The position numbers and the translations under genes are program-made. 38,935 bases of DNA from an uncultured Clostridia bacterium (lineage in GTDB: Bacteria > Bacillota > Clostridia > Oscillospirales > CAG-272), in the NCBI GenBank assembly GCA_944381075.1, contig CALWJT010000041.1, positions 1 through 38,935 of the forward strand. Direction: 5' to 3'. The notes below the pieces were generated by a model. It was given only the letters and a program-made list of their open reading frames with translations, had not been told where the DNA came from and searched no databases. This document shows, one piece after another, positions 17,911 through 18,754 of this stretch; positions within the stretch are counted from its first letter, which is position 1; every line of letters begins with the position of its first letter.

Positions 17911-17971
17911 AAAATATAAAAAGGCGCAAACGAACCCATTTGTCGTTTGACGCCTTTGTCAAAAACAATAT
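17911..17971 (-). promoter_or_regulatory. glnA leader attenuator with two ANTAR-type hairpins
   Basis: On the minus strand, after a start near 17971, the RNA can fold as hairpin P1: TTTGAC, hexaloop AAAGGC, GTCAAA (17946-17963). Hairpin P2 follows directly at 17931-17945 with loop AATGGG if one C is bulged. Both loops have A at position 1 and G at position 4, the pattern known for ANTAR targets. The alternative fold is a terminator: AAAGGCG plus CAAACGA pair with TCGTTTG plus CGCCTTT (17920-17957, one T bulged), then TTTATATTTT. The P1 loop and 3' arm are part of the terminator stem, so the two folds exclude each other. Confidence 0.75.
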
Positions 17972-17977
17972 AGATGT

Positions 17978-18006
17978 ATTATACTCTGCACTCTTCCGCT
18001 TGTCAA
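17978..18006 (-). promoter_or_regulatory. Consensus promoter of glnA
   Basis: On the minus strand TTGACA (18001-18006) and TATAAT (17978-17983) are exactly 17 bases apart. A perfect promoter suggests that control comes after initiation, in agreement with the attenuator just downstream. Confidence 0.88.
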
Positions 18007-18056
18007 GAGTTTTTCGAAAAAAAACGCCTCAATTTTTTTAGAATACTTGACAAGCG
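17997..18056. repeat. 11-bp inverted repeat covering both divergent -35 boxes
   Basis: CGCTTGTCAAG (17997-18007) and CTTGACAAGCG (18046-18056) are perfect inverted copies 38 bp apart. Each contains the TTGACA of one divergent promoter, glnA on the minus strand and the ANTAR gene on the plus strand. Part of the similarity is simply the shared -35, but the flanks match too. Confidence 0.7.
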
Positions 18057-18076
18057 AAATTCCGGTATTTTATAAT
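18047..18076 (+). promoter_or_regulatory. Promoter of the ANTAR-pyrG unit
   Basis: TTGACA (18047-18052) and TATAAT (18071-18076) are 18 bases apart. A leader of about 80 bases precedes the ATG at 18164. Confidence 0.8.
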
Positions 18077-18163
18077 AAAAGCATTGTTTTGATCTGCGTT
18101 CCAAGCCGGAGGATGACAGACTGACCAAAGCACTGGGAGCTTCCGGCAAGAAAGGAGTGCCCG

Positions 18164-18754
18164 ATGGATTCGGAAAACAGCGCGGCGGCACACGGCAGAC
18201 GAATGCTTGTCGTGTCCGGCTCGGAAAAAGGGATCGAATTTTTTGAAGAGCTTGCAAAAGACATCCCGCTCTCCATGATTCATGCAAGAAGCGCCGCCGA
18301 AGCGGCAGTACTTCTCTCCCGCACGCCCATTGACGTCATCGTCATCAATGCGCCGCTTGCGGACGACGAAGGCGGCGCCTTCGCCGTGCGCTGTGCGCAA
18401 AGCAGCTTTGCCGGCGTACTGCTGCTCGTCCGCACAGAAACGGCGCAAACGAAAAAAGCGGAGGAGGCGGGCGTCCTCGTTTTGACAAAACCCGCCGGCA
18501 AGGCGGCCATCCTAACGGCAGTCAAGCTTTCCTGCGCGGTCAGCAGACGCCTTTTCGCCGCCAGAAGCACAGCAGATTCGCTCAAATCCAAAATGGATGA
18601 GTGGAAGATCGTCAACCGCGCCAAATGGCTGCTCATCGGTAAGCTCGGCATGAGCGAGGCAGATGCGCACCGCTATATAGAAAAGCTCGCCATGGATACC
18701 CGCCAGACCCGACGGGAAATCGCAGACGGGATCATCAAGACCTACGAAAATTAG
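18164..18754 (+). CDS. ANTAR-domain RNA-binding antiterminator with a degenerate receiver
   Basis: The 196-residue protein has an N-terminal receiver-like fold (about 12-120) and a C-terminal ANTAR helical domain (about 135-195; [20 protein letters not shown] and RREIADGI are its core). ANTAR domains bind two adjacent hairpins with A1/G4 hexaloops in mRNA leaders and prevent termination. The receiver lacks the phospho-acceptor: the usual Asp is Asn62 (VIVINAPL), and the acidic pair near the N-terminus is absent (VVSGSEKG). It is therefore probably a pseudoreceiver like that of AmiR, controlled by a protein partner or a ligand. AAAGGAG precedes the ATG. It is divergent from glnA, whose leader contains a candidate target. 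pyrG follows after 37 bases. Confidence 0.9.

Follow-up and report, generated by a model that had tools for sequence, protein, structure and literature searches.

Does the ANTAR protein encoded next to the glutamine synthetase gene glnN control that gene by antitermination and, if so, does it act on one hairpin of the leader or on two? The question arises in a stretch of 38,935 nucleotides (here called the window) from an uncultured Clostridia bacterium of the CAG-272 group, in which the two genes are divergent. A sequence-only reading had proposed that the glnN leader can form either a terminator or an antiterminator hairpin, P1, that a second hairpin, P2, lies beside P1, and that the ANTAR protein, whose receiver lacks a phospho-acceptor, prevents termination.

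Ramesh et al. (2012) defined a two-hairpin motif, with matches upstream of glutamate and glutamine synthase genes (PMC3369931), and the dual stem-loop is treated as a core feature of ANTAR targets (PMC8164766). For full activity EutV and NasR depend on a pair of hairpins (PMC8934654, PMC7496416). NasR binds a single hairpin weakly, at about 12 uM (PMC7496416), and in its crystal structure the EutV dimer is unable to reach both hexaloops of a single RNA at the same time, although it requires the two in linked form (PMC8934654). ANTAR proteins with a pseudo-receiver are a known subclass (PMC7496416). Also mentioned are an antiterminator named nitR in C. acetobutylicum and, in C. thermocellum, an ANTAR gene that belongs to a glutamate synthase cluster (PMC4676874). 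With Ramesh et al. (2012) and nitR, ANTAR-type control of glutamine and glutamate synthesis genes, Clostridia included, had already been proposed. The glnA RNA motif (PMC2864571) is a different thing from the leader element described below.

Anatomy of the locus

The glnN gene (15740..17827, minus strand) encodes a type III glutamine synthetase of 695 amino acids (Pfam GSIII_N, 1.5e-81). On the plus strand, 18164..18754 encodes a pseudo-receiver ANTAR protein of 196 amino acids, identified by Pfam ANTAR and by alignments, with Asn62 at the phospho-acceptor position; pyrG, named by its sequence and by matches in relatives, lies 3' of the ANTAR gene. Both divergent genes have a sigma-70-type promoter that matches the consensus at 12 of 12 positions: TTGACA-17-TATAAT for glnN (17978..18006, minus), just upstream of P1, and TTGACA-18-TATAAT for the ANTAR gene (18047..18076, plus). 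Judged from the position of its -10 element, the glnN transcript would start near 17971; P1 begins within a few bases of this expected start, and its hexaloop begins 20 nt past the -10 element.

The putative antiterminator hairpin P1 (17946..17963, minus) has the stem TTTGAC/GTCAAA, a C:G closing pair and the hexaloop AAAGGC, with A1 and G4; the call rests on its sequence, on covariation in relatives and on its spacing to the -10 element. The intrinsic terminator stem-loop (17920..17957, minus), which contains a one-base bulge, is indicated by RNA folding and by helix covariation in relatives, and is followed by a T-rich tract seen in the sequence (17911..17919, minus). The sequence-only reading had placed both structures exactly here, and both sequences were confirmed. 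It was also correct that P1 takes bases that the terminator needs: the loop and 3' arm of P1 are part of the 5' arm of the terminator. The predicted fold energy of the terminator is -17.5 to -18.0 kcal/mol. Folding of the leader is predicted to give the terminator, at -18.0 kcal/mol, versus -10.8 kcal/mol with P1 enforced; since the terminator is the stabler state, something must favour P1 for glnN to be transcribed. The z-score of the leader region is -3.1. A promoter and terminator scan of the window did not report the leader terminator, probably owing to its bulge. No known RNA family matched the leader in Rfam at gathering score, and two matches from a lax search (E 1.3 and 1.4) were rejected.

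Compared with the published definition of an ANTAR target, the window leader has the hexaloop with A1 and G4 (AAAGGC), the C:G closing pair on a stem of otherwise free sequence (in relatives the search pattern itself demanded this C and G) and, as in the attenuation type, a hairpin that overlaps the terminator (17946-17963 over 17920-17957). It does not have two adjacent hexaloops joined by a short linker.

Several other elements were seen in the window. The divergent -35 regions form an inverted repeat (17997-18056), CGCTTGTCAAG ... CTTGACAAGCG, 38 nt apart, which is either chance or an operator common to glnN and the ANTAR gene. A third promoter-like site (17956-17985, plus; 10/12) lies within the leader and points to the ANTAR gene, away from glnN. 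A T-box leader at 15496-15726 (minus), upstream of the asparagine synthase B gene asnB (gene by NCBIfam), matches Rfam RF00230 with 71.1 bits (E 1.3e-15) and was missed by the default Rfam scan because its score is below the gathering score of 93; a second T-box leader, at 29988-30228 (minus), is over the gathering score with 119.6 bits.

The ANTAR protein

The ANTAR domain matches PF03861 with 59.1 bits against a cut-off of 27.3 (E 3.6e-16), and similarity to 1s8n, a putative antiterminator, extends over residues 28-193 (E 1.3e-13); no Pfam receiver domain matched the window protein. The earlier claim that the receiver lacks its phospho-acceptor, with Asn62 in its place, was borne out at the aligned column and extends to the clade, in which 50 of 54 and 27 of 31 proteins have Asn in two alignments. 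The acidic pocket is missing across the clade as well, the window protein having Ser and Gly at the acidic-pair positions. The protein thus has neither the phospho-acceptor Asp nor the acidic pocket of a two-component response regulator. As in AmiR, a receiver-like domain without the phospho-acceptor Asp is combined with a C-terminal ANTAR domain that has the RNA-contacting residues. The alignments support the view that the usual phosphorylation of the receiver is impossible throughout the clade. A stretch N-x-P-L-x-D-D/E is nearly invariant, which suggests that some function other than phosphorylation is kept.

Alignment to 6wsh, with a mapping that rests on our own numbering offset, places Lys149, Glu160 and Met172 of EutV at Lys154, Glu165 and Met177, which are invariant in 31 of 31 proteins. 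Two other contacts differ, which counts against the proposed control of glnN: the Tyr164 that EutV stacks on G4 corresponds to His169, and its Arg142 to Trp147 (in other clade members Ile, Leu or Val, mostly Ile), so the grip on G4 may differ.

P1 and the terminator in relatives

We used 74 glnN leaders out of 76 matches, dropping one partial gene and one without a located start, and scored P1 as a C:G-closed A1/G4 hexaloop hairpin with at least 4 pairs. The stems of the relatives' hairpins vary while pairing is kept: AAGGC/GTCTT, CGGC/GCCG, ACAGC/GCTGT, ATGAAC/GTTCAT, GTAAAC/GTTTAC, TTTGAC/GTCAAA and others.

Covariation was calculated for 64 units that had been selected for a terminator and for the loop with its closing C and G, the rest of the stem being unconstrained. 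This set combines 43 units from glnN leaders of genomes with an ANTAR gene and 21 promoter-bearing candidates from other loci; it leaves out five named duplicates and the other-locus candidates without a recognised promoter, and it retains a few probably unreal units (three, for example, fall within the 3' arm of a terminator further upstream). The covariation score of P1 is 0.559, versus 0.243 +/- 0.025 in shuffles and 0.136 to 0.219 when the partner arm is slid. Pairs 3, 4 and 5 are formed in 60, 59 and 52 of the 64 units (shuffle means 46, 32 and 36). Pair 2 counts against the helix, showing no excess of pairing (51 of 64 versus a shuffle mean of 51.9). A1 and G4 are invariant across the 64 units, though the search pattern required both. 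The sequence-only reading had offered covariation in relatives as a check on both hairpins: P1 covaries, as the scores above indicate, and P2 is not conserved.

In a smaller set of 42 full units, the scores are 0.731 versus 0.298 for P1 and 0.680 versus 0.287 for the terminator. These units were picked by hand from 70 of 88, with some tails trimmed and units with terminator pairing in another register left out, a choice that favours pairing. Covariation in each of two helices with bases in common is the pattern to be expected of a switch at the level of sequence.

Co-occurrence of P1 with the ANTAR gene

ANTAR homologues were found in 28 of the 58 relatives (29 of 59 with the window genome) and, window genome included, in 108 of the 295 genomes of the family. 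P1 is present in 26 of 48 glnN leaders from genomes with an ANTAR homologue and in 1 of 26 from genomes without (shuffled background 4%; Fisher 8.5e-6, not corrected for kinship). Counted by genome, at least one glnN leader has P1 in 24 of 29 versus 1 of 24. In the single ANTAR-negative case, as in one of the 26 positives, the hairpin lies about 300 nt upstream and is probably there by chance. The 22 of 48 leaders that lack P1 in ANTAR-positive genomes count against the association; 17 of them belong to second copies where another copy has P1, and the remaining five come from genomes in which no copy does.

A model of the full unit, searched across the family at E up to 0.01, matched 62 of 108 genomes with an ANTAR gene versus 19 of 187 without (Fisher 5e-18, again with kinship uncorrected). 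The window's own unit is a weak member and fails the threshold of 0.01 in this search. We inspected 70 of 110 matches, 30 of them given as loci and 40 chosen by hand with second tandem members left out. P1 was found in 54 of the 58 from ANTAR-positive genomes and in 5 of the 12 from ANTAR-negative ones. These five are clear units from four genomes whose genus-mates carry the ANTAR gene, and missing contigs could possibly explain its absence. Seven of the 12 fail the P1 rule; by eye five are plain terminators, and two (L304 and L311) are borderline.

The same genus offers a closer comparison, with six other genomes whose glnN genes are at 80-82% identity. No ANTAR match was found in these six genomes, which are 75-97% complete, and none of their seven glnN leaders has P1. 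A model built from relatives alone found nothing on the sense strand of the same-genus leaders and gave two weak matches elsewhere (E 0.5 and 2.2). That P1 has been lost along with the ANTAR protein supports a link between the two. Some of the ANTAR-less leaders retain a terminator-like hairpin; in one genome (G006) it still reads AAAGGCGTCAAGCG, and its upstream arm is now unpaired. To keep a terminator without its activator is odd and is a point against the link, unless the terminator is leaky or another factor acts.

Regulator and candidate targets in the host genome

The host genome comprises 2.0 Mb in 47 contigs and is 93.6% complete. Genome searches gave the divergent ANTAR protein as its sole ANTAR match and glnN as its sole match to Gln-synt_C or glutamine synthetase. 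A model of the hairpin, with 150 of 641 candidates scored, yielded 19 weak matches (E up to 10); in 13 of these an A1/G4 loop on a stem of 3 or more pairs stands at the site. The glnN leader is the only one of the 19 whose terminator reaches -10 kcal/mol or better (another comes to -6.1), and no further ANTAR target was found. A pattern search of the genome for additional targets gave 7 matches versus 6 in a reversed control, and a search for amtB with a 60-residue query, run without a positive control, gave no match.

When the window itself was left out of the model, the glnN leader was still the top match in the window (25.7 bits, E 0.0084); two non-leader stretches score close to it (E 0.035 and 0.064), and a simple unit scan of the window gave 1 match versus a shuffle mean of 1.2. 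It is therefore the context, rather than a lone match, that carries the case for the window. The same kind of scan found no unit before the window's ANTAR gene. Two matches were rejected: 36531-36590 falls inside the end of a glmM-like gene (named by eye) on the opposite strand, and a match at 15520 (minus) sits in the end of a T-box leader.

One hexaloop or two

The hexaloop starts close to the promoter. In 76 of 88 units the -10 element precedes its first base by a median of 15 nt (middle half 14 to 16, range 9 to 46), units outside glnN leaders having been chosen for the presence of a promoter. So short a spacing leaves little space for any hairpin ahead of P1, in particular for a recruitment hairpin of the eut/nas type, and P1 apparently stands at the 5' end of the transcript.

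The sequence-only reading had described a classical target in which the ANTAR protein binds both P1 and P2 (loop AATGGG). Its P1 half is upheld, the hairpin being conserved and covarying. For the P2 half speak the published ANTAR targets, which have two hexaloops (PMC3369931, PMC8164766), and the fact that the window sequence allows a P2-like hairpin if one bulge is accepted. With one bulge allowed, such loops occur in 12 of 88 units, window included, versus 7.5% in shuffles; this mild excess is hard to read, since the tip of the terminator is a hairpin anyway and shuffles do not keep that. Against it, the window P2 needs the bulge, and its segment folds at about -0.9 kcal/mol. An unbroken second adjacent hexaloop with at least 4 pairs is found in 2 of 34 glnN-leader units, with the window unit among the 32 that lack one. 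A strict scan for two hexaloops gave two matches in relatives and none in the window, neither of them convincing as a common P1-P2 arrangement. The closest ANTAR homologue found, at 45% identity, is that of G095, whose glnN leader shows by eye P1 with a one-base bulge, counted as P1-less under the strict rule, and P2 was not seen there. P2 was rejected as a conserved element; judged from sequence, two hexaloops in the glnN leader are unlikely, and binding of both hairpins as in a classical target is highly improbable. The two hexaloops of an ANTAR dimer might instead come from tandem units or from two transcripts, single units being weak or working through some other contact. Whole units do occur in tandem in 9 of the 26 P1-positive glnN leaders and, 60-120 nt apart, in 13 of the 81 genomes matched by the full-unit model. 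Yet just one unit is present in 17 of the 26 positive leaders, including that of the window and one probable chance case, and every unit of the tandem leaders examined has its own terminator; we regard this arrangement as improbable.

It might also be that the attenuator answers to another factor, or is an unregulated leaky terminator, and that its link to the ANTAR gene reflects shared ancestry only. The uncorrected kinship in both Fisher tests, the hairpin retained in G006, the clear units in four ANTAR-negative genomes and the lack of an Rfam match for the leader all speak for this. However, the A1/G4 hexaloop closed by C:G is a known ANTAR signature (PMC7496416), and a plain terminator needs no P1, yet P1 covaries and is absent from the six ANTAR-less genomes of the same genus. 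We regard this explanation as very unlikely. Single-hexaloop attenuation of glnN by the divergent pseudo-receiver protein is the best explanation and a probable one, and ANTAR-controlled attenuation of glnN, as read from sequence, is likely. The proposal of ANTAR-dependent antitermination of the glutamine synthetase gene is supported by mutually exclusive helices that both covary, and by the co-occurrence of P1 and the ANTAR gene. Two points weigh against a single-hexaloop mechanism: among the best 80 of 580 named ANTAR loci the full unit was found in 31, and one hexaloop might bind too weakly, by analogy with EutV and NasR, which need two hairpins.

Gene linkage, carriers and regulon

In 69 of 73 named loci with room for it, the ANTAR gene is preceded on its own strand by a type I glnA at a distance of up to 700 nt. 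The nitR gene of Clostridium is presumably located beside glnA. Among the relatives' loci examined, the divergent order of glnN and the ANTAR gene recurs in at least G024 and G091. The best 80 of 580 loci were kept from the scan of named genomes, and carriers among these 80 include Sedimentibacter, Clostridium methylpentosum, Clostridium cuniculi, Niameybacter, many Oscillospiraceae assemblies and some Treponema assemblies. The 80 loci contain 55 candidates with loop, promoter and terminator; a stem of 4 pairs or more is present as well in 41 of these, spread over 31 loci, and Sedimentibacter saalensis (L206) is a named carrier with such units. By the promoter, terminator and stem rules, the other 49 loci have no unit within the stretch scanned.

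Downstream of the inspected matches to the full-unit model, glnN was found at no fewer than 21 of 30 loci and at 22 of 40. Other downstream genes encode an ammonium transporter (2 of 30 and 3 of 40), glutamate dehydrogenase (4 of 40), a class II glutamine amidotransferase (2 of 40) and adenylosuccinate synthetase (1 of 30); 6 of the 30 were not placed, the wrong strand or place having been taken for some, and 9 of the 40 were unclear. Apart from glnN, each kind was checked with Pfam in one example, and the rest were named by eye from their first residues. Further units stand ahead of glnA or glutamate-synthase operons, ahead of the ANTAR gene in G024, and ahead of pyrG where it follows the ANTAR gene.

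Hexaloop units between the ANTAR gene and pyrG were observed in L166 and L167, with the sequences CCGGAC[AAAGGC]GTTCGG and CGGAC[AATGGC]GTCCG, which suggests that in some species the regulon extends to CTP synthase. A further type of leader in ANTAR neighbourhoods, GCGAC[AANGNN]GCCGC, with an A.C mismatch by the closing pair, is present in L163, L167, L168 and L169. Serial attenuators, with two complete hairpin-terminator units in one glnN leader, were seen in L069, L072, L085-L089, L119 and L122.

Proposed mechanism and relation to known systems

We propose that the glnN transcript opens with a single ANTAR-type hexaloop hairpin. By default, a terminator that reuses the hexaloop and the 3' arm of P1 would form and transcription would halt before glnN. 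The active pseudo-receiver ANTAR protein would hold P1, so that the terminator could not form and glnN would be transcribed. P1 would be the positional counterpart of P2, the antiterminator hairpin of eut and nas leaders, with the upstream recruitment hairpin absent. The activating signal would be something other than aspartyl phosphorylation, and a partner protein or a ligand in the pseudo-receiver pocket appears likely. Glutamine synthetase is our guess at the best partner candidate, from gene linkage and in the spirit of AmiR/AmiC.

The system resembles EutV and the eut leaders of Enterococcus faecalis in its receiver-like N-terminus and its terminator-excluding A1/G4 hexaloop (PMC3369931), and EutV and the clade described here alike have several targets (PMC3369931, PMC8934654). 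In contrast, eut leaders have two adjacent hexaloops where one is found here, and EutV is phosphorylated at Asp54 via EutW whereas the present clade has no phospho-acceptor (PMC3369931, PMC8934654). AmiR of Pseudomonas likewise combines a pseudo-receiver with an ANTAR domain and is free of phosphorylation control, but it responds via the amide-binding AmiC and acts on a two-hairpin leader, while the usual neighbour here is glnA (PMC7496416, PMC3369936). The search of Ramesh et al. (2012) used a two-hairpin motif, unlike the single-hexaloop class considered here (PMC3369931). In the available text of the open-licence literature we found no description of a single-hexaloop ANTAR class, its promoter spacing or its regulon.

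A wider reading, on which we are evenly divided, is that such attenuators form a class common in Clostridia, with the hairpin at the 5' end of the transcript about 15 nt past the -10 element, a single hexaloop that suffices because both chains of the dimer grip it, and a pseudo-receiver that works without a kinase. Its nitrogen regulon, held as part of the same evenly balanced reading, would comprise glnN, the operon of glnA and glutamate synthase with the ANTAR gene, amtB, gdhA and sometimes purA and pyrG. The pseudo-receiver would, again as part of that reading, sense nitrogen status via glutamine synthetase or a ligand.

Two hexaloops have been described as needed, and natural leaders with a single hexaloop would make that question directly testable. 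If the proposal is true, a nitrogen regulon can escape published scans that were built on two hairpins. The proposal also points to a nitrogen signal sensed by a receiver that is incapable of phosphorylation, and it is a possible answer to how many Clostridia may control type III glutamine synthetase.
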